Part shown: positions 10,882 through 33,331 of the stretch, piece after piece
Layout: the number at the start of each line of letters is the position of its first letter
Position numbering within the stretch: position 1 is the stretch's first letter
Assembly: GCF_900100335.1 (NCBI RefSeq)
Contig: NZ_FNFE01000011.1
Coordinates: 1 to 60,158 of the forward strand
Reading direction: 5' to 3'
Length of the DNA: 60,158 bases
Origin: Natronorubrum texcoconense
GTDB taxonomy: Archaea > Halobacteriota > Halobacteria > Halobacteriales > Natrialbaceae
Position numbers and translations under genes: made by a program
The notes under the pieces: model-generated
Databases searched by the model: none
Told to the model about the DNA's origin: nothing
Seen by the model: the letters and a program-made list of their open reading frames with translations, nothing else

Positions 10882-11478
10882 ATGAGTCAAACACAACAGC
10901 ACCTCGAGCAACAGCGACGCGAAGCGAGTAGCGACTCGCCATTCCGTCGCGACAATCACTGGGGTACCGACGTCGACGGCACCGAGGAGACGACTGGACA
11001 CGACCCGGAGGAGTTCCACTACAAAAGGGAACGCTGCGAGTACGTGATAACTGGATTTTGGAAAGAGACGGCCGAACGGCTCCTGTGCCCGGTCGCCTTT
11101 CACGAGCCCGGTGAGTACGATCTTCATGACGAACCGTGCGAGGTCGAAGTCAGCGACCCGGAGGCGTACATTCCGAAACAAGCGCCCGAGTGGCACTCAG
11201 ACGGCGAGTACGGTGCAATGAGCCATCGCGTGCGGATCAACGAGGAACACGGGAATCTAACTGGTCCGTACGTCCCCGACCGGAAATATGAGAATTTCAT
11301 GCCTGGCGTCGAGGACTTACTCTCACACTGGTACACCGAGCTGGACTTGTCGAAACGGAACATCGACACCCTTCGTGAAACGGCCGATCGAAGGAAACGC
11401 GACGGCGACGGCCGCGACGTGGATATCGTGGCGGAACTGATGCAAGACGCTTGGCGAATGGCGAAAACTGGCGAGTAA
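10882..11478 (+). CDS. First gene of the structural operon; soluble 198-residue protein
   Basis: MSQTQQHLEQQRREASSDSP, then a conserved-looking core with HYKRERCEYVITGFWKETAE and a Cys-containing beta region, ending in a charged helix (AELMQDAWRMAKTGE). No signal peptide or membrane span, so it is probably cytoplasmic. It lies 9 bases before the next gene. Function not recognised. Confidence 0.7.
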   Translation: MSQTQQHLEQQRREASSDSPFRRDNHWGTDVDGTEETTGHDPEEFHYKRERCEYVITGFWKETAERLLCPVAFHEPGEYDLHDEPCEVEVSDPEAYIPKQAPEWHSDGEYGAMSHRVRINEEHGNLTGPYVPDRKYENFMPGVEDLLSHWYTELDLSKRNIDTLRETADRRKRDGDGRDVDIVAELMQDAWRMAKTGE

Positions 11479-11487
11479 CTGATTTCA

Positions 11488-14400
11488 ATGACACGCAGAA
11501 AACACACCTCGAGCAACAGCGACCGCTCGATCTCCGACCACCTCCGACGCGCAGTTCCAACGCCAACACGAACGCAGGCGATCGCCATCACCTTCGCGTT
11601 CCTGATGCTCGCTTCGATCGCCTTCGTGCCGATGCTCGGCGGGTTCGATGATGGAACTGCGCAGGCGGACGAATTCCACAGCCAACAACTGACCGCTGAC
11701 TCACAACCACAACTGGCAACGACTACGACCGACGACTCTGATGATGATTCGGCCTACTTCGACAATTTCGGAGATGGAACGGCTCCAAATTGGGATACTG
11801 ACCAAGATGAGGTCAGCGTCGAAGAGGGCGGATTTTACAATGACTACATGCTGGCCGTTGACAGCGGCCTTAGCGAGGGCGTACTTTGGGAGGGCGGCCC
11901 AACCCTCGATAGCAGCAGTAATTTCGAAATCACTGGGACATACCTCTCTGATTCTGGTGGCGGTAGTGAGACGACCCGACTTGGCCTTCGGGATGATGAC
12001 GAAGATTTGCAGGTGAATCTGGTCCAGGATCACGGAGATGATGCGACCTATCTGCGAAATATCGATGACAACGACGCAGTTGACGAGGTAAAAATCGCAG
12101 ACGAAAGCTTCGACAACACATGGGTTGATTTCCGGTATGAGTCCACGGGTGGGGAAGTTAGGGCGAAAGTCTGGGAGTCTGGCACATCTGAGCCAACCGA
12201 ATGGGAAGGTGAGATGGACGCTTTCGAAATCGAAAGTGAGTTTTACCTCTCTGCGGGTAGCAGCGGCGATGACCGGACGCTGAACTTGGACCAAGTCGAC
12301 GCTGGCGGCCACTCAGTCAGCGGTCAATTCGTCGACCAGAACGGAGAGCCAATCCCGAACGCGACGATTGAAGGGGTGGGCGTCAACTACGACGCGCTCA
12401 ACGAGACGGTCGACGACTTTGAAGCCGAAGCCGAAGAACTACTCGAGGAAGCCGAAAACGTCGAACTGCCTGAGGAGTGGCAGGAGTTCGAAGACGAGTT
12501 CGAGACTGGCGACGGGTTGTTCGACGCCGACGAGTTTACGGCTGACATCGACGGCACATACCCGCTTGTCAACCAACACGATGACTGGGGCGAAGGTAAC
12601 ACGAACATCTTTAGCTCCGAAGTCGGCGATCCGAGACTGCAACTCGACGCGGACCAAGACGTCATAATCAGCCTGTGGGCACTTGAGGACAACAACATAT
12701 TGCTCCCGCAAGGTCCTGTCAGCAACTCTCACACTGGCGGGATTACTGAGGGCGAAGTTGTTCTTGAGGAGTACTCGGCAGGCTCGGTGATGGAAAAAGA
12801 GACCATCGAGACTGAAAGCGAGTTCGTCGTTGAACGCGCACTCCGCTCCGACCAGGAAGTCCCGGCGATCCGAAAGGACCTCTCACCGGGCGTGTATGCG
12901 GTTTATCCGGAAGGTCAGCCAGAGAAACGGTACACGTTCACTGTCGGCGACGCCGAAGACCAGTGGAACGCCCTCGAGTCCGACCTCCGAGACGAGGCCG
13001 GCGAGCTGACCGATCATGCCCAACAAATTCGGGACAATCTCGACTCTGGTGTCTTCGAGCGCCGGACGACGACGACCGACGAAAACGGCGAGTTCGACCT
13101 GCGGATGCAGTCGGGCGTCGAACGAGCAACGGTCCAGGCCTACCGGGCGGACGGCCAGCAACTGACTGATATTACTGGCCCGTCGTTCGATGATCTTCGC
13201 GACGTCCGCGACCAGGGCTACAACGGTACATTCGTCGTCGGAACGCCACAACGAACCGATGTCCCCGAAGAGGACGTCCAGCTTCAGGGCTTCCGCACTG
13301 ACGAACTCCCACACATGGGCATCGACGCCCTCGAAGAGTGGCGGCAGTGGGCCGAAGAACAGCGGATGGACGAACGCCTCGATGAGATCCGCTCCGAGTA
13401 CGACAAACGCTTCGACGAAATGGAGCGTGGGACGCTCGAGGCCACGTACGAGGGTCACAAAGGAATAATCGAGATCAACCCGCGCGCGGAAGAACGTTAT
13501 CTCGAACGCAGCGACTTCGACGAGATCCAAGACGCCGACGACCTGGACAACGACGAGCTGGCCGAAGAAACCGGCCACATGCAGACGGCGATCACCGGTA
13601 TCGAGACAATCGGCGCACCGGATCTCGACGACCCGCTTGAAATCGACGGCGGCGAACTACTCGCCGAGTATCCAATCCCTGGCGGAATTGACGAAGACAC
13701 ACTCTCGCCGGAAATCCACTGGTCCGATGGCACGAGCGAGGAGATCGCAGACGAGTACTGGTCAATCGAATCGAGCGGCACGTTCGGAACCAGTAACACG
13801 CTCGTCATCGACGGCTTCCCGCTCGAGGACGACGACCCGGCGGCGTTCGACATCCGAATCATGGGTGGTGGCGAGGATTCGATCCTCGATGACCGGATTT
13901 CGGGCACGAACCCAGCGTTCCAGGGCGTCGTTCCCGACGTACGAAGCGTCGACCTAAACACGATGTCGCCCGGCGATAGTGACCGGGTCTCGATGACGTT
14001 CCGACCCGGCGACGGCGGCTTCGAGGGCGTCGAAGCGGTCGAAGTGTTCGACCCCGACGGCGAACAACTTGACGTCGACCTCCGTGACGACGAAGAGCGT
14101 GCGTCCTTCGAAACGAACGGCGAAGGCGAGCACTACGTCCGCGCACAGATCGAATCTGACACGGGCGAAGCGTTCACGAAGACGTTCTCGATTCGAGCAC
14201 TCGAGTCCGAACGAAGCGACTACCCAACAGTCAGAGCCGAGACCGGTACTGGTGACGAACTGTTCGCGATCGTCGGCGACGGTCTCCGCGACGCTGAAAT
14301 CAGCGTTGACGACGACCGAGTCGGCATCTCGGCGATCGTCCCATCGGGCGATACGCCGTCCCGACTCGACGTGAAAGCCGATCCGGCGATGGACCGCCAC

Positions 14401-14820
14401 ACAAACACGATCGATATCCGCGTGCTCGAGGGCAGCGACGAGCGCACGATCGACACGAGCGTCGAGACGGTGCTCCACTTCGACTCGCTCGACGAAGACG
14501 CGGCGATCTGGCGTGGCGGAACGGCGTGGTTCCGCGGCGAACCGATGGAAGTCGGTGAGACGAGCCGCTACGGTGAAGTGATCGAACGCGATAACGGCAA
14601 GGTCGTGATTCGTACGTTCACCGAGGGTGACGGTAGCCTCGAGATGTACGTCAACTCGGACCCATCGTGGGATGAAGGCCTGAAACACTCGGTCGCAACG
14701 TCGGTTCCGAGCATCAATTTCTATTTCCTGCCGTTCACCGCGGTCGGCGGGGCGATCGGTTCACTGGGCGTCACACTCGGGATGTTCGGTATCGTGGTGC
14801 GACGCCGCTGGTTCGCCTAA
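11488..14820 (+). CDS. Large surface protein, 1110 residues, anchored at both ends
   Basis: A basic N-terminus and one hydrophobic segment (about 31-50, ending near FDDGTAQA) act as signal or anchor. Residues about 85-270 look like a ConA/LamG-type beta domain (FDNFGDGTAPNW). SGQFVDQNGEPIPNATIEGV (about 279-298) opens a carboxypeptidase-regulatory-like Ig domain. A long acidic helical and beta region follows. The C-terminus has a hydrophobic span with VGGAIGSLGVTLGMFGIVV and ends RRRWFA. Cysteine is absent or nearly so. It is the likely spike or coat of whatever particle or apparatus the operon builds (inference). Confidence 0.85.
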   Translation: MTRRKHTSSNSDRSISDHLRRAVPTPTRTQAIAITFAFLMLASIAFVPMLGGFDDGTAQADEFHSQQLTADSQPQLATTTTDDSDDDSAYFDNFGDGTAPNWDTDQDEVSVEEGGFYNDYMLAVDSGLSEGVLWEGGPTLDSSSNFEITGTYLSDSGGGSETTRLGLRDDDEDLQVNLVQDHGDDATYLRNIDDNDAVDEVKIADESFDNTWVDFRYESTGGEVRAKVWESGTSEPTEWEGEMDAFEIESEFYLSAGSSGDDRTLNLDQVDAGGHSVSGQFVDQNGEPIPNATIEGVGVNYDALNETVDDFEAEAEELLEEAENVELPEEWQEFEDEFETGDGLFDADEFTADIDGTYPLVNQHDDWGEGNTNIFSSEVGDPRLQLDADQDVIISLWALEDNNILLPQGPVSNSHTGGITEGEVVLEEYSAGSVMEKETIETESEFVVERALRSDQEVPAIRKDLSPGVYAVYPEGQPEKRYTFTVGDAEDQWNALESDLRDEAGELTDHAQQIRDNLDSGVFERRTTTTDENGEFDLRMQSGVERATVQAYRADGQQLTDITGPSFDDLRDVRDQGYNGTFVVGTPQRTDVPEEDVQLQGFRTDELPHMGIDALEEWRQWAEEQRMDERLDEIRSEYDKRFDEMERGTLEATYEGHKGIIEINPRAEERYLERSDFDEIQDADDLDNDELAEETGHMQTAITGIETIGAPDLDDPLEIDGGELLAEYPIPGGIDEDTLSPEIHWSDGTSEEIADEYWSIESSGTFGTSNTLVIDGFPLEDDDPAAFDIRIMGGGEDSILDDRISGTNPAFQGVVPDVRSVDLNTMSPGDSDRVSMTFRPGDGGFEGVEAVEVFDPDGEQLDVDLRDDEERASFETNGEGEHYVRAQIESDTGEAFTKTFSIRALESERSDYPTVRAETGTGDELFAIVGDGLRDAEISVDDDRVGISAIVPSGDTPSRLDVKADPAMDRHTNTIDIRVLEGSDERTIDTSVETVLHFDSLDEDAAIWRGGTAWFRGEPMEVGETSRYGEVIERDNGKVVIRTFTEGDGSLEMYVNSDPSWDEGLKHSVATSVPSINFYFLPFTAVGGAIGSLGVTLGMFGIVVRRRWFA

Positions 14821-14829
14821 GGTGAAACA

Positions 14830-16332
14830 ATGACTACACGAAGACAATTCCTCACAGGACTCGGAGCAACGGCAGCCGTCGCGAGCGCGCCCGGCTTTAT
14901 CAACTTCTCACAACGACGGTTGGGGTCGAGCAACACACTCACTAATACGGTACTCGAGGCCGACCTCGAGACGTTCGGATCGGACGCCGACCCGTCGTTC
15001 CTGATTCACTACCAGGGCGACGACGAACGCGAGCAACTCGAGAGCTGGGTCGACAGTAATGCGGTCAAGAAACGCGAACTCGAGAACGTCAATCTGATGG
15101 CGATCTCGGCGTCGTGGGAAGACATCGGCCTGCAACAACGCGGCTACGGGCCGGCGTCGATCAACCAAATCTCGGGTGGCGTCCAAGAGAACGACTACGT
15201 TGATTATATCGACGCGAACATGAGCGTCGAAGTTCCCGAGCCGATCGACGAACTCGAGGGGAGTGACGCGTGGTCGTACGACTTCGGGTGGCGACGGACG
15301 GCCGCGCTGATGGTTCGGACTCGGTCGTGGAGCCCAACGCCGGACGGAATCGAAGGACTCGCGTTCGACGGCGACGCTCCCGAAGCAACCATTCCCGAGG
15401 CTCGTGACCTCGTGCGCGCGGACGATGACCTAATCGATAGCGTCGACACGTCGGAGCTGACGATCGCCGTGATCGACACGGGCGTCAACGACGGCTCGAC
15501 GTTCGGCGACCGAATCCTTCCCGAATCGACAGACTTCACGAGCGATTCTGATCCGACCGGCATCGACGCGGTTGCGGACGGCGACGGACACGGGACGTGG
15601 GTCGCGGCGTGTATGGCTGGATCGGATGGCTTCGCGCCCGACGCGGGCATTCTCGGACTGAAAGCACTCGGAGACGATGGCGGCGGGCAAACGAAAGACA
15701 TCGTCGCCGCGGTCGACAAAGCGATCGAAGAGGAGGCCGACATCGTCTGCCTCTCGCTTGGGTCGCCGCTCCCGTCACAAGCACTCGCGGATGCACTCGC
15801 GGACGCACGCGACGCGGGCGTGTTCTGTGTTGTCGCTGTGGGCAACGACCGATTCGTGACCGTGTTCACGAACAGCCCGGCTGATGCCGACGACGGCTTC
15901 GGCGTCAACGCGTCGAACGTCCCCGAAAGCGGCGACCGAGACGACACGAAACCCGCTTATTTCGGAAACACTGCGCCAGACCCCGACACCGGAAACGGCC
16001 CGGAGCTCGTGGCACCAGGGATGAACATCACTGCCGAACTCCCGAGTGGGCCGTCGACGCTCTCCGGAACGTCGATGGCGGCCCCGATGGTCGGCGGCGG
16101 AGCGGCACTGCTCCGGGCCAGCGAGGGCACGGACGTCGACGAGACGTGGGACCGGCTCACGGCGACCGGACACCCACTCGAGCACGCGGGCGAAACGGAA
16201 GCCGAGTTCGGACTGCTCGACGTCCAGGCGGCGATCGACGACGACGAACCGGACGACGACCGCGACGAGATCCGATCGGCCGAAGCCGAAGCTCGAGACG
16301 CGTTCAACGAAACGCTGTCGACAATTCTGTGA
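14830..16332 (+). CDS. Tat-exported subtilisin-like serine protease
   Basis: 500 residues. The Tat signal is TTRRQFLTGLGATAAVASAPG (RR at residues 4-5). The S8 catalytic triad is intact: Asp216 in AVIDTGVND, His254 in DGHGTWVA and Ser415 in LSGTSMAAPM. A propeptide-like region (about 40-190) precedes the catalytic domain and a short helical tail follows. It is a halolysin-like extracellular protease. Its position among structural genes suggests maturation of the neighbouring surface proteins, or opening of the recipient S-layer (inference). Ten bases separate it from the large surface gene. Confidence 0.95.
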   Translation: MTTRRQFLTGLGATAAVASAPGFINFSQRRLGSSNTLTNTVLEADLETFGSDADPSFLIHYQGDDEREQLESWVDSNAVKKRELENVNLMAISASWEDIGLQQRGYGPASINQISGGVQENDYVDYIDANMSVEVPEPIDELEGSDAWSYDFGWRRTAALMVRTRSWSPTPDGIEGLAFDGDAPEATIPEARDLVRADDDLIDSVDTSELTIAVIDTGVNDGSTFGDRILPESTDFTSDSDPTGIDAVADGDGHGTWVAACMAGSDGFAPDAGILGLKALGDDGGGQTKDIVAAVDKAIEEEADIVCLSLGSPLPSQALADALADARDAGVFCVVAVGNDRFVTVFTNSPADADDGFGVNASNVPESGDRDDTKPAYFGNTAPDPDTGNGPELVAPGMNITAELPSGPSTLSGTSMAAPMVGGGAALLRASEGTDVDETWDRLTATGHPLEHAGETEAEFGLLDVQAAIDDDEPDDDRDEIRSAEAEARDAFNETLSTIL

Positions 16333-16340
16333 GTCCCACC

Positions 16341-17195
16341 ATGCAACGCCGAGAGTTCCTCACGTCCGGCGCCGCGGCCTCAACGGTCGCGTTCTGGGGG
16401 CCGTTCTCGAGAAACGACGGCGAGGATGACGGCCTCGAGTACGACGACGGCGGTTATCCGATTCCCCCCGACCACATCACTGAGATCCGGGACGATCTTG
16501 ATGAACTGCGAGAGTTCCAACCGGAGTTCTACTATGGGCATATGAACTACCTCGAGCAGGAAGAAGCCCGATCGAAGGCTCGAGGGTTGTACGGCTGGAC
16601 GGCTGAAAGCGAGGATCACGATGTTACCGCCCACTACTACTGGTTTCGCCACCAGACCCAACAGTCGTTGCTCAACACGCTTTTCAATGTTGACGTTAGC
16701 TGGGGCGACGCTCACTATTTAGACCATGAGCCGACCATCGTGTTCCGAAGAGAGGACAAAACTGTCGACACGATCGTAACGACCGGCGGACACCACTACG
16801 CGCTGTACATCGACGGCGAGTGGGGTCCGATGAGTGAAGAGTACGTTTCGGGCCGCGAAACGCATGTCAATCTGATGGTGATCCGGCCGCACAACCACTA
16901 TATGGAGTCTCCCTCGAGTGCTGTGGGAGACGGGCAGTTTGTCGAAGACTTCCGCGGGACGTTCGGCTCCTTCCGTGACGTTCGCGAGGACTGGTATGAC
17001 GAGGGGATTGATGATGGCCGGTACAACAATACCGCAGATCGGGCGATAGAAGATCCATTCGTATTCTACGACGAGGAGCGCCATCACTGGTGGGATAGCG
17101 ATACGAACGACGCGTGGTTCGCTCGGAACGTCTGGATTCCACTCGGACTGAGCGAAGGCACGTCACGGAACCGGCTCAGATTCGAAGAGGACTAA
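16341..17195 (+). CDS. Tat-exported protein, paralogue A
   Basis: 284 residues from the ATG at 16341 with a Tat signal (QRREFLTSGAAASTVAFWG). The mature part includes HYYWFRHQTQQ, DHEPTIVFRRED, a DNWYD-like EDWYDEGIDDG, AIEDPFVFYDEE and HHWWDSDTNDAWFARNVWIP. The same order of motifs occurs in the next gene, so the two are tandem paralogues. Trp/Tyr/His-rich surface chemistry suggests a binding module. No known enzyme motif. Confidence 0.8.
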   Translation: MQRREFLTSGAAASTVAFWGPFSRNDGEDDGLEYDDGGYPIPPDHITEIRDDLDELREFQPEFYYGHMNYLEQEEARSKARGLYGWTAESEDHDVTAHYYWFRHQTQQSLLNTLFNVDVSWGDAHYLDHEPTIVFRREDKTVDTIVTTGGHHYALYIDGEWGPMSEEYVSGRETHVNLMVIRPHNHYMESPSSAVGDGQFVEDFRGTFGSFRDVREDWYDEGIDDGRYNNTADRAIEDPFVFYDEERHHWWDSDTNDAWFARNVWIPLGLSEGTSRNRLRFEED

Positions 17196-17201
17196 CAACC
17201 A

Positions 17202-18389
17202 ATGTCAGAGACAACACAAACACACCAAGAGTCACAACCACGACTCCAGGCGGACAGACGAGAGGTACTGAAAGCGACCGGGGCGGCGATCGCGTTCGTA
17301 GTCGTCGGCCGGAGCGGGATCGAACGGGCAACTGCATCCGATGATGACGATGCACCCACGCTGACGACTGATGCAACGACTCCAGGCGACACGGCTATCC
17401 AGGCCAGAGTCTACGAGTACACTGACGATGATGGCGGCGAGTTGGTAAACAGCGACTCCATCGAGATTGATGACGGAACGAACGACTACGATCTTGCTGG
17501 AATCGAAGGCTCAGAGGACTACTACTACGACTTCGAGATCGAACTCGGATCGAACGATAATGAGGTGTCGCCGGAGTTCGTCGAAGCGATCCTCGAAATA
17601 CCTCTCGACCCAAACGATTTCGAACACAGATCACAGTCAACCGACGAGTGGTCAGAAGTCCCAGAGAACGCCGAAATCGTCTACGACGAGTACCGTCTTC
17701 GAAAGTACCAGCCGAGGATTTCGATGGACTCGGACACTCGCCGTGGAAGCGACGGGATGTTCGCCTTCGTCGCCGACTCGGATGACGAAGACACGTTCGT
17801 GTGTTGTTATTGGCTCGACCTTCCGAAAGCCGAAACGGCGTGGGTGGACTTTAACAGCCAACTCGGCTCTCACAAGCCGATCTACGTGTTCGTCGACGAA
17901 GAGACAGAAGAAATTGAGGAGATCGTGTATTCGGGATACCAGTACCTCGCGGCCGATGTCCAACCGGACGAAGACGACCTTGAACAATCCCGTGGTGATG
18001 AGCCAACCCACGCGAGTTTCGAGGTGATCGACCCGTGGAACCACTTGTCGTTCAAAGATGACGGCCGGGGGTCGTTCCCCGAATTGCACGCACTCGAGGA
18101 GACGCGATCCACATGGACGGATCACGGCTGGTACGATGCCGCTGATGCGATCGCAGTCGAAGACCCGTGGCAGATGCGCAACCGGGAGATGTGGTGGGAC
18201 GATAGCTGGACGTCGTTCTCTGCCCGATACGTCAACATAGCTCGCCGGCTCGGAGCTGCGGGCGGCGAGCACGCAGACGAGCTGCGGGTGGGAAGCGCAG
18301 ACGGCTGGTTTTCGTTCGACTTCGATTTCGACTTGAGCTGGCCGTGGTCTGACGACGAAGACGACGATACCGAATCCAACGGAGAGTAA
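17202..18389 (+). CDS. Tat-exported protein, paralogue B
   Basis: 395 residues. The Tat motif DRREVLKATGAAIAFVVVG lies unusually deep (about residues 23-41). After an extra N-terminal domain (about 50-160) the paralogous part follows: CCYWLDLPKAETAWVDF, KPIYVFVDEETEEIEEIVYS, PWNHLSF, HGWYDAADAIAVEDPW and WWDDSWTSFSARYVNI. These match paralogue A in order and spacing. The highly acidic C-terminus ends DDEDDDTESNGE. Two diverged neighbouring copies suggest a heteromeric surface component. Confidence 0.8.
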   Translation: MSETTQTHQESQPRLQADRREVLKATGAAIAFVVVGRSGIERATASDDDDAPTLTTDATTPGDTAIQARVYEYTDDDGGELVNSDSIEIDDGTNDYDLAGIEGSEDYYYDFEIELGSNDNEVSPEFVEAILEIPLDPNDFEHRSQSTDEWSEVPENAEIVYDEYRLRKYQPRISMDSDTRRGSDGMFAFVADSDDEDTFVCCYWLDLPKAETAWVDFNSQLGSHKPIYVFVDEETEEIEEIVYSGYQYLAADVQPDEDDLEQSRGDEPTHASFEVIDPWNHLSFKDDGRGSFPELHALEETRSTWTDHGWYDAADAIAVEDPWQMRNREMWWDDSWTSFSARYVNIARRLGAAGGEHADELRVGSADGWFSFDFDFDLSWPWSDDEDDDTESNGE

Positions 18390-18391
18390 TC

Positions 18392-20248
18392 ATGGCTGAA
18401 CTCATTAACAATCCATACGCGACTGTCGACTGGGGTGCAGCGAGCCAATTAAAGGTGATGAGCCACCTTCACCCGTCCAAACTGGGGTCTCAGCAAGACA
18501 TCGTAGATGCAGTCGAAGATGCGGGAGTAGATTTCGCTTGGATGGGGGATCGTGGAGACGATCAACCTCCATGGCCGTGGGATGCCGAACCCTCTGGAAC
18601 ACTGTTTCAGGACGCTGGAACGGAGACTCGGACCCAGACTGACGAATACGAGGACTACCATTGGGACGAGGATAATGACGACCACATGATTACCATGTAC
18701 TCCGACAAGTACGTTCCAGATGACTTCGTCAAAGAACAAGACGATGTTATCGAGACAGTCGGAGCTGACACTGAATATCACGAAGATGGCGGGTTAGTAT
18801 ATCTTGCTCACACTTGGGACGCTGATAACCCCAGAGACTACGATTACTACCTCAGAATCTTTAGCGAATGGTCTCCATCTGACGGATTACTCGGAGGGTC
18901 AACGTATACGAGGCGGTGCCCGAATCCAGAAGACGACAGTATCCAGTGGGACCATCGAGAACGCGAGGGAATGTGGGACGACATCTTAACGGAACTTGCT
19001 CCGGAGTATGTTCCGTATCTGTTGACCGAAGACGATGCTGAAACCCTCTCTGGCGACAGTTGGGATGGCGGGTTCGATCTTCGGTGGCTAACAATCCCGG
19101 TCACAGACGTCGGTTCCCTTTCCGAAGAACGGCCCCCCGAAATCAATGATGCACTGCGGTCTGGGGCGTTCATATCTAATTATCGGACTGACAAGAGCAT
19201 TGATCCGCCAACTGTCAATGCGATCTACGTGGACGAAGATTCCAAAGAGATCACTGTCGACGCCAGCGGCTACGATTACATCGACTGGGTCTCAAACGGC
19301 GAAGTAATCCATACCGGGAGCACGTTCGACTACGGTTCCAATTCCGATCTTGGAGCATATGTCCGACCACGGCTTGTCAGACAAGAGAACCCAGAGAGCG
19401 GATCACTGATACAGCCGTTTACGTTCGAGGGCGCACCCCGCGATCTCGAGTCCGAGTTCAGCAGATACGGCGTTGCGAGGACTGGGTTACAATCACCGTC
19501 AGATGGGCGAATCACCCTCTCTGATGTCGATTGGAACGAATTGGAGCACCAAGAAAACATCTTGGTGGACGATGGTCCGATCACGTTAGAACCTCCTGAG
19601 GAAACCGATGTCCCAGAGAGCACGATCGCCCATTATGATGCACAATCTGCGTTCGGCGAAGGTGACGATGGCACTTCAATCTCGACGTGGACGGACGAAT
19701 ACAATGGCTTTGACCTGACTGGCGATTCCCCTACGCTTCGGGCAGACGGTATCAATGGATACCAAAGCGTTGAATTCGACGGTAGCGGCGACGTATTGAA
19801 TACCGATACGGGCGCGAATGATCAACCGATCACTGTCTTCGCAGTGGTTGAACTTCTGGGCGGTGAATCGGACCATCAGATTTTCTGGGGTGACAACTCC
19901 TCTGATGAGTTCTGGATGGCACAGGGTGCGAGTGACGGATGGAACTCAATTTCGACATCTGAGGGAGATAGGATTGATGGTAACTTCAGCACGCAAGGAG
20001 AGGCCATCATCATGGTCGCTGTCTTCGACGGATCGAACAGCTTCATCAGGGAAAACGGGGAAGAAACCGCAAGCGGAAATCTCGACTCTGATGTTCTTGA
20101 GGGCCTCTCGATCGGTGACGTTGGCTCACGAGATAATAACTGGCACGGGCTCGCCGGCGAGTTCTTAGTTGTTGGCGACCGGTTGGACACGGACCAGATT
20201 CAGGAGTGGGAAGAGAAACTCTCCGAAAACTGGGACATCTCGATATGA
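18392..20248 (+). CDS. PHP-like N-terminus plus LamG/concanavalin-like C-terminus, 618 residues
   Basis: Near the N-terminus LKVMSHLHPSKLGSQQDIVD, then AVEDAGVDFAWMGDRGD, resembles the first motifs of PHP-family metal phosphoesterases (H-x-H, then a G...D pair), though the full ligand set was not traced. An Ig-like linker (IDPPTVNAIYVDEDSKEITV) leads to a C-terminal domain typical of LamG/ConA lectin folds (DVPESTIAHYDAQS, SVEFDGSGD-like, VFAVVELLGG, WHGLAGEFLVVGDRLD). No signal peptide is visible although the neighbours are exported. It starts 3 bases after the preceding stop. Confidence 0.65.
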   Translation: MAELINNPYATVDWGAASQLKVMSHLHPSKLGSQQDIVDAVEDAGVDFAWMGDRGDDQPPWPWDAEPSGTLFQDAGTETRTQTDEYEDYHWDEDNDDHMITMYSDKYVPDDFVKEQDDVIETVGADTEYHEDGGLVYLAHTWDADNPRDYDYYLRIFSEWSPSDGLLGGSTYTRRCPNPEDDSIQWDHREREGMWDDILTELAPEYVPYLLTEDDAETLSGDSWDGGFDLRWLTIPVTDVGSLSEERPPEINDALRSGAFISNYRTDKSIDPPTVNAIYVDEDSKEITVDASGYDYIDWVSNGEVIHTGSTFDYGSNSDLGAYVRPRLVRQENPESGSLIQPFTFEGAPRDLESEFSRYGVARTGLQSPSDGRITLSDVDWNELEHQENILVDDGPITLEPPEETDVPESTIAHYDAQSAFGEGDDGTSISTWTDEYNGFDLTGDSPTLRADGINGYQSVEFDGSGDVLNTDTGANDQPITVFAVVELLGGESDHQIFWGDNSSDEFWMAQGASDGWNSISTSEGDRIDGNFSTQGEAIIMVAVFDGSNSFIRENGEETASGNLDSDVLEGLSIGDVGSRDNNWHGLAGEFLVVGDRLDTDQIQEWEEKLSENWDISI

Positions 20249-25374: not shown

Positions 25375-25403
25375 AATTTATAAATCCACTCCGAATCATG
25401 ACA
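25375..25403 (+). promoter_or_regulatory. Internal TATA box
   Basis: TTTATAAAT (about 25375-25383) lies 20-28 bases before the ATG at 25403. A leaderless internal start here would allow the distal half of the operon, including the ATPase, to be expressed separately. Confidence 0.5.
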
Positions 25404-25639
25404 TGACCAGCTTTCGAAACCACACGACCGGCAGCGTGACGACGAACAACAAATCGATTCAACTCTATTTCGGCGTCAAGTTCTCGAGAGCGCCACAGAA
25501 CCCGCTGCGGAATGCGCGGGAGTACGTGGCGTTCTGTGACTCTGGCGTCGTGGTAGTGTTCCCGACCGACCGACTCCCGGCGTTCCCACTCGAGATAACG
25601 CCACCAGAGGAGTTCGACGTTCTCGAGACCACACTATGA
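25403..25639 (+). CDS. 78-residue beta-rich protein
   Basis: MTSFRNHTTGSVTTNNKSIQ, then alternating beta strands (YVAFCDSGVVVVFPTDRLPA) with one Cys. No membrane segment. The internal TATA box before it argues that it opens a sub-operon. Its stop overlaps the next start (ATGA). Confidence 0.6.
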   Translation: MTSFRNHTTGSVTTNNKSIQLYFGVKFSRAPQNPLRNAREYVAFCDSGVVVVFPTDRLPAFPLEITPPEEFDVLETTL

Positions 25640-26298
25640 GCACTCACACCCCACCCACGGACGGCCAACAGGCGACCGAACAGCAACGTACGGAGCTTTC
25701 GGAACTCCGGCGGAAGCTATCGAACAAATACGAGTACATCCGCGACGACGACCCGGAGCTATTCGAGGAGATCGACACGTTCCTTCGGACATCGTCGACG
25801 CTCCACGACGGGAGTATCGGCAGCGCGGTCAAATCCGAACTGCGCGAACTGAAACGTGACAAGAAGATGCGCGACCACCGCGGCGTCGAAGACCCGGAAG
25901 CGGCTTTCCCCGATGACTGCGAGGGCTGTCCGCACTACGGCGTCGTCTGCCCGATGGTCAAACGTTACTCCGTGACGAAAACGATCGAACGGATTCTCCG
26001 GCGTGCGGAGAGTGACGAACAGGTGCTCGAGAAACTGACCGACGTGGCGATCGAACAGGACTGTCACGTTATTCTCGACGTGCTCGAGGAGTGCCAGGGC
26101 TCGTACACGGAGTTCCTACAGGAAGGCTATGAACTGAACGCACGAGCAGTCAAGGCACTCACCGGACCGGGTGAGACGACCGACAGCGACGGCGTGACGA
26201 CGTCGTTCGACGACGGACCGTCGCCCGAGGACAAACAACGCATGGAGGACACAATCGAGGCCGTGATGGCCGACGATGAAGACGGTGATTCGTCGTGA
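25636..26298 (+). CDS. Cys-containing cytoplasmic protein, 220 residues
   Basis: A helical N-terminus (ELRRKLSNKYEYIRDDDPEL) is followed by DDCEGCPHYGVVCPMVKRYS, a C-x2-C-x6-C cluster that could bind zinc or an iron-sulfur cluster together with a later Cys. Helices follow (TIERILRRAESDEQVLEKLT), then an acidic disordered tail. Overlapping 4-base junctions on both sides place it inside the apparatus operon. Function unknown. Confidence 0.65.
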   Translation: MSTHTPPTDGQQATEQQRTELSELRRKLSNKYEYIRDDDPELFEEIDTFLRTSSTLHDGSIGSAVKSELRELKRDKKMRDHRGVEDPEAAFPDDCEGCPHYGVVCPMVKRYSVTKTIERILRRAESDEQVLEKLTDVAIEQDCHVILDVLEECQGSYTEFLQEGYELNARAVKALTGPGETTDSDGVTTSFDDGPSPEDKQRMEDTIEAVMADDEDGDSS

Positions 26299-27287
26299 TC
26301 GACTGGATGTCGGCCGTCCTCGGTGGCGGCGCGTTCCTGCTCGTCTTGCTCGTGCTCTATTTCATCGCCCTGAAAACAACGTCACTCGGCGACGACGAAC
26401 ACAATACCGAGAGCACCGAAGACCGTCTCTCGATGGACGGCGCGGAACGCCACCGACGCATCGGGTTCAGACGCCGTGTCTCGAGGCAGACGCCGATGAC
26501 AAAGGCGTTCCTCGCCTCAATCATCGTGTTGCTGTGCTATCTCGCGATCGCCGTCTACCAAGTCGCTTCAACCGGCTCGCCAAGCGAAGCCGCCTACACT
26601 GAATACGTCGAGTACGGCCTCTTCGGGTTGGTCTGCGTTGCGGGCGGTGTCTGGTTCAAGGCCAAACAGAACGCCAAGGCCGGTGAGCTACAGATCATGC
26701 TCGAGAAAGGCGAGGGGAACCGCCGGCAGACGGTCAATTTCGACCGCAGTCAAGTTCGCGAGACCGCTGACGGAACGAAACTCGTCGCCGAACTCAAAGG
26801 CCACCAGGCGTTCGGGCTGTTCTGGCGACCGTTACTCGTCGGCGACGACCCGGAGCTTCGGGACGCCGATCACCGGCTGCCCGACGACCTCGTGTTGTAC
26901 GAGGTTCCCGACGACGAGTCCGCGGTATGGGACGAACGAACGGGGGAAGTCACGATTCGGGCGAAGGCTAAACGAACGGTCGACAACCCGAACCGAGCTG
27001 CGGACTACGAGATCGTGCCGTCGGATCGCAAATCCCGCTCGGAGATACAGGACTTAGAAAACGAAAAGCGCGAACTCGAGGAAGAACTCCGGGGCGAGAA
27101 AGTCCAGAACGGGATCCTCAGCGAGAAACTGACCGAAATCGAAAACATCCTCACGAACGAGGAAGACGCCGGGATGCGCCGGCTTCGAGAGGCCAAAGAC
27201 GTCCTCGAGCCCGACCGGCCCGCGACGCCGTACCGACAGGACGAACGAGAGGACGACCGTGGCACCGCTGCGGCTCAAAGCGACTAA
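26295..27287 (+). CDS. Membrane protein with C-terminal coiled coil, 330 residues
   Basis: One span near 6-28, two more near 70-90 and 100-118, then a soluble domain with FGLFWRPLLVGDDPELRDAD. A long Glu/Lys/Arg coiled coil (about 250-300, QDLENEKRELEEELRGEKVQ) ends the protein. The cytoplasmic coiled coil could contact the ATPase at the operon end (inference). Confidence 0.75.
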   Translation: MIDWMSAVLGGGAFLLVLLVLYFIALKTTSLGDDEHNTESTEDRLSMDGAERHRRIGFRRRVSRQTPMTKAFLASIIVLLCYLAIAVYQVASTGSPSEAAYTEYVEYGLFGLVCVAGGVWFKAKQNAKAGELQIMLEKGEGNRRQTVNFDRSQVRETADGTKLVAELKGHQAFGLFWRPLLVGDDPELRDADHRLPDDLVLYEVPDDESAVWDERTGEVTIRAKAKRTVDNPNRAADYEIVPSDRKSRSEIQDLENEKRELEEELRGEKVQNGILSEKLTEIENILTNEEDAGMRRLREAKDVLEPDRPATPYRQDEREDDRGTAAAQSD

Positions 27288-27296: not shown

Positions 27297-28655
27297 ATGA
27301 CCAACGCCAATTCACGCCGAGTCACAACTCGGCTCGCCATGCTGTGTATCGCGCTGTTGCTCGTCACGAGCGCCGTAGGTGCGCTCGCGACGGCCGCGGC
27401 CGCTGACGCGCCACAGCCGACGATACAGGACAACTCGAGCGACGAGAACACGACCGACACCACTCCCGAGGATTCGGACGCACCGACACAGGCCGAAATG
27501 CTGCGCGTGACGCCCGACAATCCCGAAAAGGAGTATCTGAGTATTGAAACCGAAAGCTCAGACGAGGCATACAACACGTCCGGCCCGTACGCCACGTTCA
27601 GCCTTTCCGAACCCGTCCAATCGGTCCGTGTCGGCCAATCCGGCGCTGACGCGACCGTTCTTGGCGACGGCTCGGTCGTTCGTGTCGAGTACGACGAGGA
27701 TGCGGCCGGCGAGAACGCCTCGCTCTACACGGCCGAACTGTTCTTCGCCGACGGCTCGGAACACCAGATCGACCTCTACGCTCACGATACCGATGTCTCG
27801 CTCGAGGCCGCCGAGTACGCTGAGTACGGCGGTCTCATTGATTACGTGACCGAACAAGCCGGCGGCGAAGGGTTCGAAACGACGCCCGAAGGCGCACAGG
27901 CGTACGTCGAGCACAAAGAGGAACGTGCTGACCTGTTCGATCACATGTTCAGCGAACACGTCATGATGTTTCTGACGTTGCTCATGATGGCCGCTCGGAA
28001 CTTCGTGACGTGGGTCGTCGCGATCGCCATCATCGCCGGGCTCGCGATCTACTTCGAGCGCAAACACGGCTGGATTCTTCGGCTCCAGCAGATGGCAGAG
28101 AGTCGCGCCGAACTCATGCGCGAGGCTGTTCGCCAGGACTACGAGGAACGCCGAAACGCGGCGGCGAAACACTCACTCGAGGACGTAAGCGAGGTCGGTC
28201 CGAATGCCGCCCGGTACTGGCGTGAACTCGGCGTCGAGACGGTCGACGATATGATCGAAGTCGCGTGCAAGGGCGTGATCTCGCTGACCGAAGAGGGGCG
28301 AATCAACTACGACGAGAACGGCAACGTGGTCTACGCCCACCACGGCGTCGACGACCTGAAAGACGTCGACCCGCTCACGCTCGACCAGCTCCGCTCGCAG
28401 ACGTGGCTAGGACCGCTGATTCTCGAGGGACGACTCGCGCCGACGACGGCCCTGTCGAACATCGAGAGTGCGTTGCTGGTCGCCGAGAAAGAGTACAACC
28501 GCGGAAACGAGGTTCGTGACGCCCGACGGACAGTCTCGGAGTTGAACGCTCGACTCCGCGGCCAGCGGGATTTCGAGGATGCCGAGACGTCGTCGAACGC
28601 TGCCCGTCCGAACCGTCGAACTGACTACAGCGGTGCCGCCACTGGAGGTGACTGA
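27297..28655 (+). CDS. Signal-peptide membrane protein with helix-hairpin-helix-like segment, 452 residues
   Basis: A signal peptide (LAMLCIALLLVTSAVGALAT) and an exported acidic beta domain (about 35-200) precede one or two spans (about 220-260, FLTLLMMAARNFVTWVVAIA). The cytoplasmic part contains LEDVSEVGPNAARYWRELGV-ETVDDMIEVA, a helix-hairpin-helix/SAM-like motif usual in DNA-binding or oligomerising proteins. It thus links the outside to a possible DNA-contacting cytoplasmic domain, consistent with a DNA export pore. Confidence 0.75.
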   Translation: MTNANSRRVTTRLAMLCIALLLVTSAVGALATAAAADAPQPTIQDNSSDENTTDTTPEDSDAPTQAEMLRVTPDNPEKEYLSIETESSDEAYNTSGPYATFSLSEPVQSVRVGQSGADATVLGDGSVVRVEYDEDAAGENASLYTAELFFADGSEHQIDLYAHDTDVSLEAAEYAEYGGLIDYVTEQAGGEGFETTPEGAQAYVEHKEERADLFDHMFSEHVMMFLTLLMMAARNFVTWVVAIAIIAGLAIYFERKHGWILRLQQMAESRAELMREAVRQDYEERRNAAAKHSLEDVSEVGPNAARYWRELGVETVDDMIEVACKGVISLTEEGRINYDENGNVVYAHHGVDDLKDVDPLTLDQLRSQTWLGPLILEGRLAPTTALSNIESALLVAEKEYNRGNEVRDARRTVSELNARLRGQRDFEDAETSSNAARPNRRTDYSGAATGGD

Positions 28656-28657
28656 TT

Positions 28658-30634
28658 GTGCCCTCGCTTTCACTGCTTGATCGTGCCGACCCCGAAACAA
28701 ACGACTCGCCGTCGCTACTGACGCGAGTCTCGAGTCGTGTCTTCGGCGACCCTCGAAAGGCTCCGAAACGGCTGGCGATCCTGTTCGTCTTCGGCCTGTT
28801 CGGGCTGATTACGACCGGCCTGTGGTTGATCGTGAACTCGTCGATCGACACGTCCGGTTCGTCCGCGCCGGTCGTCGGGCCGGTGCTCCAGATCCTGACG
28901 AGCGTGTGGCTGGTGCCGGTGCTCGCGCTGTATCTCACCCGGCGGTGGGTGTTCTTCCGCCGCGGCCGAAACGCCGGGCTCGCGGCCGATGTGACCGGCT
29001 GGTCGGTCAACACGGTCAACCACCTTCGCGAAGAAATTCAGACGACCGACGGCTGTACGCGAATCATTGCTTCGACGGGCGACGCCTTCGAGGATATCGC
29101 CGGCCGAATCGATAGCGCGCTCGAGGGCGAACACGACGACGATACGGTCGACTTTTGGGAAGCTGACGACCACGCCGAAGACTTCGATATCGGCCACGAC
29201 ATGTTCGCCGATGACGAGGACACGGGCCGTATCGAGGAGTTGATTGACGAGGAACAGGCACTCATCAAGGAGTACAACGCAAACACCGATCGGATTGACG
29301 AGTTGCTCGGAGACGCGCTCGACGGCGAAATCAATCCGTGGGCCGTCCTCGAGTCCGACGACGACATGGCGTCGCTGTACGACCTCATGGACGGCGGCTC
29401 TCGAGACGCCGTCGACGAGGCCCAAATCTTGATCGACGAGTGCGAACAGATACAACAGCAAATTGACGACGTTCGCGACGAGATCGAAGCGGCGACGGCG
29501 CCCGACGATGACGGCCTCGAAGCCGACGCGAAAGCCGTTCGCGACCAGATTCAACAGGGGTATACGGCGGCGATTGACCTCTCCGACGAGTTGTACGAGG
29601 TCATGAACGAGCCTGAGTTCGACGTCCCCGACACGGACGCCGAAGCCGATTCTCGAGAGCGCCAGATCCCGTGGCGCGTGCGGTTCATGGAGGAGATGAA
29701 ACACCTGTGGCTCGACTTACAGAGTGGGTTTCGAACCGGCGACGCCGTCGTCAAGTTCGGCGTTCCGGCGATCGTGACGTTCGTCCTCCAGTTGTTCGCT
29801 GTCGGACTGTGGACCCATCCCGTCGTGTACGCGCTGTTCATTACGACGAGTACTATTGTCGGGCTGTTCTGGTACTGGGTCGTCAAACGCCGCCGGCAGC
29901 GCCGGCTGAAACGCTACCGTGCGGACTCGAGTAGCGACTACTGGCTCGACTGTGCCGGCCAGTTCAAGACCGTCGAGACCGCCGACGTGACGGTCTACAT
30001 GGGCTTTATCGCCGGTCGCCGATACGCATCCTACGACCGCGAAGAGTTCGTCCGCAAAACGGCGCGAACGATGCACCAGCACGTCTCCGACGAGTGTGTC
30101 GCGCCCTCGGACCTCCAGCATTATGCCCGGTGTCTCGAGCAAATGAAGCCGAACCTCAAGGGCCACCGTGAGAACGTCCTTCGGCCGTTGATCCTCAAGG
30201 AATTGAAAGAGACCGTCGAGACCGCCGACGACGACATTATCCCGAAAGCCGAACTCGCGTGGTCAGTGATCGAACAACCGACCAGCTCGCGAATCGAACG
30301 GAAACTCGGTCACGACCCCGAACTCGTCTGCGAGGAGTACGAATGGCTCGTCGAGGACGCCCATATTCTCGACGAACGCGATGTCGAGTTCCGGGATGCA
30401 AACGGCGATGTCCAGGTAATCACGCTCGTCTTCCCCGCGGAGAAACGCCGCTTACCTGACGTTAGTGAACGGCATTCGCAGTTCTCCGACCGATTTACCG
30501 ACCGGAAGGGCGAGGCAGTGTACAAACTCCCCGACGTGGATCCACGCGACGGATTGCAGGGATTCGTTCCGACGCCACAAGCCGCCGCACTGTTCGACGG
30601 GGCCGACCCGGCGGCGGTTGCTCGAAGTAACTAA
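28658..30634 (+). CDS. Large polytopic membrane protein, 658 residues
   Basis: GTG start at 28658 with a strong ribosome binding site (GGAGGTGA at 28643-28650). Two N-terminal spans (about 28-50 and 66-88) are followed by a long acidic helical cytoplasmic stretch (about 110-340, with VDEAQILIDECEQIQQQIDD). Two further spans lie near 367-412, then a basic junction (KRRRQRRLKRYRADSS) and a cytoplasmic helical C-terminal domain of about 230 residues. Size and topology fit a membrane core subunit of the apparatus. Confidence 0.78.
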   Translation: MPSLSLLDRADPETNDSPSLLTRVSSRVFGDPRKAPKRLAILFVFGLFGLITTGLWLIVNSSIDTSGSSAPVVGPVLQILTSVWLVPVLALYLTRRWVFFRRGRNAGLAADVTGWSVNTVNHLREEIQTTDGCTRIIASTGDAFEDIAGRIDSALEGEHDDDTVDFWEADDHAEDFDIGHDMFADDEDTGRIEELIDEEQALIKEYNANTDRIDELLGDALDGEINPWAVLESDDDMASLYDLMDGGSRDAVDEAQILIDECEQIQQQIDDVRDEIEAATAPDDDGLEADAKAVRDQIQQGYTAAIDLSDELYEVMNEPEFDVPDTDAEADSRERQIPWRVRFMEEMKHLWLDLQSGFRTGDAVVKFGVPAIVTFVLQLFAVGLWTHPVVYALFITTSTIVGLFWYWVVKRRRQRRLKRYRADSSSDYWLDCAGQFKTVETADVTVYMGFIAGRRYASYDREEFVRKTARTMHQHVSDECVAPSDLQHYARCLEQMKPNLKGHRENVLRPLILKELKETVETADDDIIPKAELAWSVIEQPTSSRIERKLGHDPELVCEEYEWLVEDAHILDERDVEFRDANGDVQVITLVFPAEKRRLPDVSERHSQFSDRFTDRKGEAVYKLPDVDPRDGLQGFVPTPQAAALFDGADPAAVARSN

Positions 30635-30638
30635 CACA

Positions 30639-30881
30639 ATGGCACACGATACAGAGACAGAAACCGGACCGGTAGACGAACGATGGTCAATCAACGATGT
30701 AGCACTTCTCGCGGTGCTATTCGGAGCCGCGGCGACCGCACTCCCGATTATCGCGTATCTCGAGGGCGGCATTACCGGGTGGATGCTGCTCTTGCTCCCG
30801 CTGACGGTTGTCTTCGGCTACGAATCAGGTATTATCCCACAGTTGAAGTGGGAAGCCGCCCGCCGAATCCGTGGTGATTGA
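30639..30881 (+). CDS. Small two-pass membrane protein, 80 residues
   Basis: An acidic head, spans near 20-41 and 45-62 (ITGWMLLLLPLTVVFGY), and a short basic tail. It is sandwiched between the polytopic protein and the ATPase gene with minimal spacing, as expected of a membrane partner. Confidence 0.7.
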   Translation: MAHDTETETGPVDERWSINDVALLAVLFGAAATALPIIAYLEGGITGWMLLLLPLTVVFGYESGIIPQLKWEAARRIRGD

Positions 30882-30886
30882 TACGA

Positions 30887-33331
30887 ATGAGCGACTCACA
30901 ACAACCAGTCAAAGATATCCAGAGTACCGACGCTGAACAGGTCGAAGACACGATCACCGACCTCCAGCAACAGTATCGACGCCGCCAACGCCACACCGAG
31001 CGGGCTGAACAGGACGCCCGATTGCGGAAGATTCTCGACCAGGCGCGGAAGGCACTCGCCGACGCCGCCGACCACGATCTCGAGTCGCTACTCCATGCCG
31101 CCCACTGGATCGTTCGCGACCACGAGGATATCGAGACCGTCCTTCGACCGGACTACGACGGCCTCGAGCCACAGGTCAAATCTCGGTTTCGCGAGCAAAT
31201 CGCGCTGCGAGACCAGGGCGAGACGCCCGATTCGGCGGTGAAAGAACTCGAGACGCTGTTCCATATCGCGCTTGAACTCGAGTTAGTGTACGGCGTCAAC
31301 GACATGACGTGGTACGAGCCCGTCCGATTCTCGAAGATTGACCCCGCGCCGGGGAAAGCAAGCACGTCGGGCGAGGTGACGCCGGTCGGTCGGATTCGCG
31401 TTGGTGCCGACGAACCGATCGGGCCGGGCGACCGCCGGCCGATCATCGAACACAAATCCTGCGAGCATGTGTTGACCGTCGCGCTACCGCGACAGGGCAA
31501 GGACTCGACGAACGTTTCGCTGTGTGCGAATCTGAAAGAAGAGCACCAGTACAAGTGGATCAGTCTGTGGGACGACGGTCGTGACGAGACGAACATGATC
31601 GCCACGCCGAACGACGAGCAACCGATTCAAGAGGGCCTCGAGGAATTGAATCAGGAGCCGACGGCCTACGATACGAACGTGTACGTGCCGGCGATGAGCG
31701 GGCTTCCCTCGGAGTTGCCCGGTAACTTCGAGCCGTTCACGATCGGCGTCGACGACCTCACGGGGAAGCTGATTCTCCAGCTCGGCGGGTTCAGCGCCGA
31801 CCGGAATACGATTAGCCGCGTCGAGCAGGCACTCTCTGAGGCGAAGACAGCGAAAAGCGACGAGGTGGCCGTACTGGTCGACCGGCTCGAGAAATACGCC
31901 GAGGAAGTCGAAGCGACGGTCACGATTCGCCACCTCGCCGACGACGAGATGACCAGCGACGACCTCGATGACGGCGAGGAACTGGTTCACGACGACGGCG
32001 GCGCGACCGAGATTCGCTACGAGATGGACGCCGACGACGTGCTGCGCGAGTGCGCACAGACTGTGCTCCACCTCGCAGGCGAGGGACTGCTCGCCGATTC
32101 GGACGCCGAGACGAACCTCGATATGACCGAGATTGTCAAGCGGAAGGATCGGGTGGCGACGCTGAACTGTAACTATCTCGAGGATCGGAACGAACCGCTC
32201 AAGTACATTATCACGAACCTGTGGCTTCGGCTGTTGCTCCGAGTCCGTGACAAGGACAAGTCGCTACCGCGCGTCGCGCTCGAGGTGCGCGAGTTGAAAC
32301 AGATCGCGCCGTCGAAGATGACGATCGTCGATTACGCGAGCGAGGTGCGGCCACTCCGACAGACGCTGTACGAGATCGCCACACAGGGCGGCTCGAGGCG
32401 AATCTTGATGCTCGGGAGTACACAGAAGCTGAACGACGTCGCGAAACCCGTGCGGTCGAACATGCCGTATAAGGTGTTCTTGAAGCTTGATAACGGGCTC
32501 ATCAAGACGATGAACGATGAGATGGACTTCCCCTACGACCTATGCCAACAACTGAAAGGGTTTGAACAGGGACAAGGCGCACTAAAAGTCGATGAGGACT
32601 TTTTCTGGCCGATTTGGTGGCGTGGCGCACCGTGTGGCCTCGGTGACGGTGACGTGCCGTTCGAACGCCGCTACGGGCTCGCCTACGGATTCCGTGTCCG
32701 CTCGCACGAGGACGACCGGTGGTCGGCAGAGTACGCCGACGAAAACGACTGGTGGGCCGACAGCGACGGTACAGCGTGCTCAAGCGACGAGCCGCCCGCC
32801 GTAGACGAGTGGTACTTACTCGAGAGCGATTTCGAGGACTGCGTACGGCCCGAAACGCTGGATGCCGAGTCAGTGAAACGGTTTGCCGAACGACGGCAGA
32901 CCTACGACGTCCCGAACGATCTGACGTTCCAACGGACCAGTATCGCGAATGAAAGTCGCGAAATGCGCCTCGAGCGACTCGGACAAGCGAAAGAGCGAGA
33001 GATGGCCGAAATGATGAACGGTCAGACGGTGCCGATCAAAACCGACGGCGGGATGACAGAGGAGTATAGACCGCCAGAAACGCTACGGAAATGGCTCGAA
33101 TACTCTACAGAACGGCGTCAGAAGCTTCTTCACAGCCTTTCCGAGGTCGAACGGGGGGAGATTACTAACCGCAAAAGCCTCTCCCATCACACAGGCATTC
33201 CCGAGGGGACAATCGCAGAGTATCTGGCCGACAGTGAACTCCTCGGTGCATGCGTCGAAAAGAAAAGTGGAGTGTACAGCCTCACGAGTATGGGTGAAAA
33301 GGCAATCGGGATACAATGGAGCGAACTCTGA
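30887..33331 (+). CDS. HerA/VirD4-type ATPase with degenerate motifs and C-terminal winged helix
   Basis: 814 residues from the ATG at 30887 (a TTG at 30878 would add three). The N-terminus is helical. A Walker A-like ALPRQGKDST (199-208) lacks the first Gly but keeps GK. The Walker B-like VALEVRELKQIAP (463-475) keeps the Glu but has Arg in place of Asp. LMLGSTQKLNDVAKPVRSNM (507-526) matches the HerA/FtsK/VirD4 STQ motif. The last 70 or so residues form a winged helix (GEITNRKSLSHHTGIPEGTI). Such ATPases pump DNA or protein through membranes or package genomes. It is the last gene of the operon and the probable motor. Confidence 0.82.
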   Translation: MSDSQQPVKDIQSTDAEQVEDTITDLQQQYRRRQRHTERAEQDARLRKILDQARKALADAADHDLESLLHAAHWIVRDHEDIETVLRPDYDGLEPQVKSRFREQIALRDQGETPDSAVKELETLFHIALELELVYGVNDMTWYEPVRFSKIDPAPGKASTSGEVTPVGRIRVGADEPIGPGDRRPIIEHKSCEHVLTVALPRQGKDSTNVSLCANLKEEHQYKWISLWDDGRDETNMIATPNDEQPIQEGLEELNQEPTAYDTNVYVPAMSGLPSELPGNFEPFTIGVDDLTGKLILQLGGFSADRNTISRVEQALSEAKTAKSDEVAVLVDRLEKYAEEVEATVTIRHLADDEMTSDDLDDGEELVHDDGGATEIRYEMDADDVLRECAQTVLHLAGEGLLADSDAETNLDMTEIVKRKDRVATLNCNYLEDRNEPLKYIITNLWLRLLLRVRDKDKSLPRVALEVRELKQIAPSKMTIVDYASEVRPLRQTLYEIATQGGSRRILMLGSTQKLNDVAKPVRSNMPYKVFLKLDNGLIKTMNDEMDFPYDLCQQLKGFEQGQGALKVDEDFFWPIWWRGAPCGLGDGDVPFERRYGLAYGFRVRSHEDDRWSAEYADENDWWADSDGTACSSDEPPAVDEWYLLESDFEDCVRPETLDAESVKRFAERRQTYDVPNDLTFQRTSIANESREMRLERLGQAKEREMAEMMNGQTVPIKTDGGMTEEYRPPETLRKWLEYSTERRQKLLHSLSEVERGEITNRKSLSHHTGIPEGTIAEYLADSELLGACVEKKSGVYSLTSMGEKAIGIQWSEL

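Follow-up and report, generated by a model that had tools for sequence, protein, structure and literature searches.

A predicted plasmid-vesicle gene module of the pR1SE type on a circular plasmid of Natronorubrum texcoconense

Introduction

A contig of Natronorubrum texcoconense (NZ_FNFE01000011.1; 60,158 nucleotides, analyzed in full and called the window), part of a 4.64-Mb haloarchaeal assembly, carries a long run of same-strand genes for exported proteins, membrane proteins and a motor-like protein. What kind of apparatus do these genes encode? The original prediction, made from the DNA sequence, proposed a membrane-bounded transfer agent (plasmid vesicle, pleomorphic virus-like particle or new secretion machine) on an autonomously replicating circle, and hinted at the plasmid pR1SE.

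pR1SE has been shown by experiment to travel between cells in self-encoded plasmid vesicles (reported in PMC10818511). Infectious vesicles carrying the plasmid and plasmid-encoded proteins have been demonstrated for pR1SE only (PMC10818511). Infection by the vesicles spreads while host growth stays largely unchanged, and removal of N-glycosylation lowers vesicle production (PMC10384203). In a review, such plasmid vesicles are termed plasmidions (PMC10117752). Lücking, Alarcón-Schumacher and Erdmann (2023) described a family of 41 plasmids, the apHPVs, which are recognized by at least five of the six markers ORF6, 8, 17, 21, 23 and 24 and have two gene clusters with a variable region in between (PMC10818511).

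Results and Discussion

The element: The ends of the contig were found by sequence comparison to overlap exactly over 95 bp. Thus, the element is a circular plasmid of 60,063 bp, as had been predicted. The expected integrase and ParA were also detected:

4163-5401, minus strand: Orc1/Cdc6 initiator (PF22703, 4.9e-27; PF09079, 1e-16)
5490-5875, no strand assigned: repeats beside cdc6, candidate origin (five copies of ACGATTGAATnnGTGGTGTG type, one inverted)
34728-35816, minus strand: tyrosine integrase (PF00589, 2.5e-10)
40449-41390, minus strand: ParA-type partition ATPase (PF13614, 8.7e-18)

The inverted and direct repeats at 5490-5875, which adjoin cdc6, probably form the replication origin. 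An MCM-like gene on the plus strand (56451-57659) encodes an AAA+ domain without the N-terminal domain, and its product has VDASVNLS where the full-length MCM on the Halorussus vallis plasmid unnamed4 (L013) has the Walker A GDPGTAKS. This suggests a non-catalytic remnant or a regulator. A cytosine-5 DNA methyltransferase gene (50540-52291, minus strand) adjoins a DUF6884 gene within a long run of small genes on the minus strand (about 37-56 kb); no complete defence system was identified.

The gene block: The block extends from an ATG at 10882 to a TGA ending at 33331 and contains about 20 genes, all on the plus strand, in agreement with the roughly 21 collinear genes predicted. ORF numbers follow the gene order of pR1SE (L004), with ORF6-9, 17 and 23-25 as published anchors; the numbers of ORF13-14 and ORF18-22 are inferred by counting between them. 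Fractions of plasmids refer to the comparison described below. The genes, with one accessory gene downstream, are as follows (all plus strand):

10882-11478: w01, 198 aa, no signal or TM, in front of ORF6 (pR1SE counterpart L004:5098-5754, profile E 2e-73; 8/14 plasmids)
11488-14820: ORF6 homologue of cluster 1, anchored surface protein of 1110 aa (matches pR1SE ORF6 by profile; hydrophobic segments at both termini, 32-50 and 1086-1104)
14830-16332: ORF7 homologue, Tat-exported subtilisin-like protease (Tat motif RRQFL; PF00082, 3.4e-33; 14/14)
16341-17195: ORF8 homologue, Tat-exported (profile match; Tat motif RREFL)
17202-18389: second gene of ORF8 type, paralogous to and in tandem with the preceding one, Tat-exported (RREVL; profile recovers pR1SE ORF8, E 1e-81)
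18392-20248: w06, flexible-region gene, no signal peptide found (phrog_10356, 7e-10; 0/14 apHPVs)
20491-21534: ORF9 homologue, acidic coat candidate with Sec-type signal (E 1e-89 to pR1SE)
21635-22033: w08, small accessory gene (on 5 relatives, absent from pR1SE)
22217-22918: Tat-exported protein, ORF13 by count (RRQHL; homologue of pR1SE 16713-17450; 14/14)
23135-23485: small membrane protein, ORF14 by count (homologue of pR1SE 17450-17833; 12/14)
23488-24750: ORF17 homologue, first gene of cluster 2, membrane protein with three hydrophobic segments (E 1.5e-120)
24747-25049: small 2-TM protein, ORF18 by count (14/14)
25042-25356: small 2-TM protein, ORF19 by count (14/14)
25403-25639: small protein, ORF20 by count (13/14)
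25636-26298: ORF21 homologue, soluble, Cys-containing (14/14)
26295-27287: ORF22 homologue, 2 TM (14/14)
27297-28655: ORF23 homologue with signal peptide (Sec-type), exported domain, TM and cytoplasmic domain (14/14; hydropathy)
28658-30634: ORF24 homologue, membrane protein whose helical insert varies and whose C-terminal region is winged-helix-like (14/14; model and fold comparison)
30639-30881: w19, small 2-TM protein (homologue detected on L008 only)
30887-33331: ORF25 homologue, HerA-fold motor with C-terminal winged helix (profile searches, AlphaFold model, fold comparison)
33484-33918: w21, accessory gene downstream of the motor, TM, SHOCT and helix-hairpin-helix (6/14 relatives)

Four proteins carry Tat motifs and two others Sec-type signal segments. 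Besides the 1110-aa protein, transmembrane segments were detected by hydropathy in at least eight proteins, encoded by the genes starting at 23135, 23488, 24747, 25042, 26295, 27297, 28658 and 30639. The predicted protein inventory was therefore confirmed: at least four Tat or Sec exported proteins, a secreted protease, an anchored 1110-residue surface protein and at least seven membrane proteins. The transcriptional picture was not. True 4-base overlaps, described as many, number only three (at 24747, 25636 and 26295), in addition to one 8-base overlap (at 25042). A TATA-like box (25376-25386, plus strand) lies 24-26 nt upstream of the gene start at 25403 and probably serves as an internal promoter; the same box precedes the ORF20 gene on the relatives L005 and L015. 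This box argues for more than one transcription unit in the block, and the proposed single 23-kb operon is unsupported.

Relationship to pR1SE and the apHPVs: We compared the motor-bearing neighbourhoods of 14 PLSDB plasmids, using one profile built per block gene. In pR1SE, 16 block genes have counterparts that keep both strand and order (Kendall tau 1.00). Each of the 14 plasmids carries 13-18 orthologues in the same order (Kendall tau 0.96-1.00). The subtilase ORF7, ORF8, ORF13, ORF17-19 and ORF21-25 were found on all 14, and ORF9, ORF14 and ORF20 on 12 or 13. With the profiles made here, all six apHPV markers are present. The two clusters and the intervening variable region, which includes w06 and w08, were also observed, and the subtilase and the ORF25 motor are both present, as in apHPVs. 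Judged from its sequence, the block is the predicted plasmid-vesicle module of a further, divergent apHPV, a kind of element already described.

The hint of pR1SE was thus well founded, the block being orthologous to the plasmid-vesicle genes of that plasmid. As for the nature of the transfer agent, a membrane-bounded agent is the best reading by orthology, whereas neither the suggested new secretion machine nor a pleomorphic virus is supported. Because the block matches the established pR1SE set nearly one to one, the claim of novelty, which had been staked beforehand on the absence of such a match, fails.

pR1SE and pR1SE2 of Halorubrum lacusprofundi (NZ_KX687704 and NZ_KX906370) share with the texcoconense plasmid 16 collinear orthologues, including ORF6-9 and ORF17-25, and are likewise circular plasmids with an integrase and an AAA initiator. 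However, their motors are only 39-40% identical to that of the texcoconense plasmid, which lacks an identified RepH-type ORF1 and has a duplicated ORF8 and the extra genes w06, w08, w19 and w21. The closest relatives (motor 72-75% identical) are the Natronosalvus halobius plasmid unnamed2 (NZ_CP099999) and the Natrinema versiforme contig AOID01000019. The latter has the nearest motor (75%) and was named an apHPV in PMC10818511. The N. halobius plasmid also has w08, w21, an integrase and ParA, and its ORF20 is likewise preceded by the TATA-like box, but w06 was not found on it and its ORF6-8 are only 33-40% identical to those of the texcoconense plasmid. The tandem ORF8 arrangement (16341-17195 and 17202-18389) is not unique, since a second such gene is also present on L008, L012 and L014. 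On some relatives, the profile of 17202-18389 matches a separate downstream gene instead of ORF8.

Selection and conservation: Against the N. halobius plasmid, dN/dS was below 1 for every gene compared (about 0.2-0.6). Since the gene order is kept on 14 plasmids and dN/dS is below 1 throughout, the collinearity of the block is not due to chance. These values also bear on the possibility that the plasmid is a decayed or domesticated apHPV, in which the genes are kept, no infectious vesicles are made and the element is maintained by Orc1/Cdc6 and ParA alone. Many partial apHPVs exist (PMC10818511), motor copies in three other genomes (G119, G090 and G279) contain in-frame stops, and the MCM-like gene of this plasmid appears to lack a Walker A. 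However, the core genes are all open and full length, and the low dN/dS extends across the block. We therefore regard decay as unlikely.

The amino acid identity to N. halobius increases from the first genes to the motor: w01 and ORF6-8 reach 29-40%, ORF9 47%, ORF17-24 54-66% and the motor 72%. Such a gradient is expected for, and does not prove, a variable vesicle surface combined with a constant loading machine.

The ORF25 motor: The open frame of the motor gene from 30878 encodes 817 aa, with a HerA-fold core at about residues 187-530. The family profile begins at the ATG at 30887, which is more likely the start than 30878. Thus, an overlap of the motor gene with the preceding gene is doubtful. 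No match above chance was detected for ORF25 in Pfam, NCBIfam or PHROGs, and a profile search of solved structures, tried for a HerA identity at the sequence level, gave one weak, unrelated match only. An AlphaFold model was built on 12 sequences (pLDDT 63; P-loop region below 50). Its best match was HerA (Z 14.1, 281 residues, rmsd 5.2), followed by VirB4 (Z 11.3) and TrwB (Z 11.2), with a Foldseek E of 2.8e-7, and the last 80 residues matched MarR-type winged helices (Z about 9). The model, which is of modest confidence, supports a RecA-like core resembling those of HerA, VirB4 and TrwB and a C-terminal winged helix.

The motor differs from these hexameric DNA motors in its nucleotide-binding motifs and in the winged helix. 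Its Walker A is ALPRQGKDST and its Walker B is EVRE, where the canonical forms are GxxxxGK[ST] and hhhhDE. All aligned family members have PRxGKDST and, in the Walker B region, ExRE. The family therefore has Asp at the canonical Ser/Thr of Walker A and a Walker B without the usual Asp-Glu. Because both motifs deviate in all members examined, ATP hydrolysis by the motor is not assured, and we term it HerA-fold rather than file it as HerA. The predicted HerA/VirD4-like ATPase holds as a fold, but the canonical Walker motifs are absent. ORF25 has been reported to resemble VirB4, TrwB, HerA and a viral packaging ATPase in structure (PMC10818511). As far as the main text of that article was available, it contains no mention of the Walker motif deviation or the winged helix in ORF25, nor of the rise in conservation, the internal promoter or the helicase-less 'MCM' neighbours described below.

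The matches of the motor fold to TrwB and VirB4 (Z about 11), together with the membrane proteins of the block (at least eight), would also suit a contact-dependent, conjugation-like system, in which motor and membrane proteins form an intercellular channel. Several results argue against this. HerA outranks TrwB and VirB4 in the fold comparison; TraG-D_C (PF12696), the coupling family tried, has no match anywhere in the texcoconense genome; no relaxase was found among the main proteins scanned, a set of longer ORFs; and PLSDB types all 14 relatives as non-mobilizable. In addition, pR1SE moves without cell contact (PMC10818511). A conjugation-like channel is thus very improbable.

Distribution of the motor: The motor was found in full length on 14 PLSDB plasmids, pR1SE and pR1SE2 among them, and in 27 of 391 sampled Halobacteria genomes (17 of 86 genera). 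One scan of GTDB contigs gave 12 motor loci. No second copy was found in the texcoconense genome. No motor relative was detected in IMG/VR by a motif-based scan or in the 50,697 phage records of INPHARED.

This distribution speaks against a pleomorphic or other virus with virion proteins too divergent for recognition. An exported surface protein, the chronic-type life cycle of pR1SE (PMC10384203) and the resemblance of w06 to virion proteins would fit a virus. However, besides the absence of motor relatives from both collections, ORF6, 8, 9, 17 and 25 have no PHROGs match, and apHPVs form their own cluster in the published gene-sharing network (PMC10818511). Pfam and PHROGs gave no capsid, portal, terminase or spike match in the block save for the C-terminal part of w06, in searches that divergent proteins could escape. 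We give the viral reading almost no weight; where a plasmid vesicle ends and a virion begins is partly a matter of definition.

The C-terminal part of w06 resembles a virion structural protein family (phrog_10356), and w06 is 28.7% identical over 39% to a protein of Halorubrum spindle-shaped virus BLv25. No homologue was found on the 14 apHPVs. Since this part is like virion and spindle-shaped halovirus proteins, w06 may have been exchanged between plasmid and virus.

Proposed mechanism: For pR1SE, the proposed roles are vesicle shaping for cluster 1 and plasmid packaging for cluster 2 with ORF25, the plasmid being recruited by ORF25 (PMC10818511). Mass spectrometry of pR1SE vesicles detected the core proteins except ORF25 (PMC10818511). 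For the texcoconense plasmid, gene content, gene order, export signals, predicted motor fold and circularity were observed; from these we infer vesicle transfer, how the two clusters share the work, the protease substrates and the role of the motor. In our main reading (probability about 0.8), this is a pR1SE-like module in which the vesicle surface is made by cluster 1 (ORF6-9) and loading of the plasmid is the task of cluster 2 (ORF17-25). By orthology, the Tat/Sec-exported cluster 1 proteins (ORF6, ORF7, the two ORF8 and ORF9) would go to the outer face of the membrane. There, the subtilase ORF7 would trim cluster 1 surface proteins, its presumed substrates, and the cluster 1 proteins would form the surface of a budding vesicle. 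ORF17-24, which are mostly membrane proteins, would form a complex at the bud. The HerA-fold motor would dock on this complex and move the circular plasmid into the vesicle, which would leave without lysis and deliver the plasmid to a plasmid-free cell.

A more specific proposal is that cluster 2 is a dedicated vesicle-loading machine, in which ORF25, bearing Walker motifs peculiar to the family and a winged helix at its C-terminus and joined to a membrane complex of ORF17-24, would recognize the circular plasmid and pump it into the budding vesicle. We put this forward tentatively, as possible but doubtful. If true, it would be a mode of DNA packaging distinct from viral terminases and conjugative secretion and common to all relatives. 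No known fold supporting a channel was found in ORF24 and the other cluster 2 proteins. In the ORF24 model (pLDDT 67), a helical insert at about residues 180-315 matches Snf7/CHMP/Vipp1 hairpins (Z about 10). This ESCRT-III likeness was rejected as a sign of a budding role, since most family members lack the insert or have a dissimilar one and long helical hairpins reach such scores by chance. A weak likeness to winged helices (Z about 8) was also seen in region 503-596 of ORF24. The DNA-binding helix-hairpin-helix noted in ORF23 occurs in only two of 15 members and was not relied on. w21, with its TM, SHOCT and helix-hairpin-helix, is a possible membrane tether for DNA.

As a complete, divergent member with a duplicated ORF8, the texcoconense plasmid sets the constant part of the module (above all ORF17-25, including the motor) apart from the variable part (surface proteins and the inter-cluster region). 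This contrast points to candidate proteins for DNA loading and host recognition. ORF13, 14, 18-20 and 22, which are not on the published core list, are nearly as constant as the core, and the near-constant small membrane proteins, with the deviant motor motifs, offer new handles on the mechanism of loading and budding.

Neighbours of the motor on related plasmids: On ten relatives, a gene annotated as 'MCM' or 'ATPase' (hypothetical on L013) lies just downstream of ORF25, usually directly adjacent:

L007:22451-23410, L008:24174-25139, L009:22419-23378, L011:22415-23374, L012:21449-22396
L013:19814-20788, L014:22266-23210, L015:22400-23338, L016:22095-23036, L017:22394-23335

The gene is missing at that place in the texcoconense plasmid, pR1SE, pR1SE2, N. 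halobius and N. amylolyticus. All ten copies examined encode the MCM N-terminal (OB/zinc-finger) part followed by a short C-terminal domain, and lack the AAA+ helicase. Thus, a role of this gene as a replication helicase is doubtful.

On L013, the motor has a second place in the record. The contig G383:C5 carries a first motor copy at near-identical coordinates to L013 and a further, equal-scoring copy at 119900-122266. The two records suggest that the apHPV motor is duplicated on one plasmid of 131 kb.
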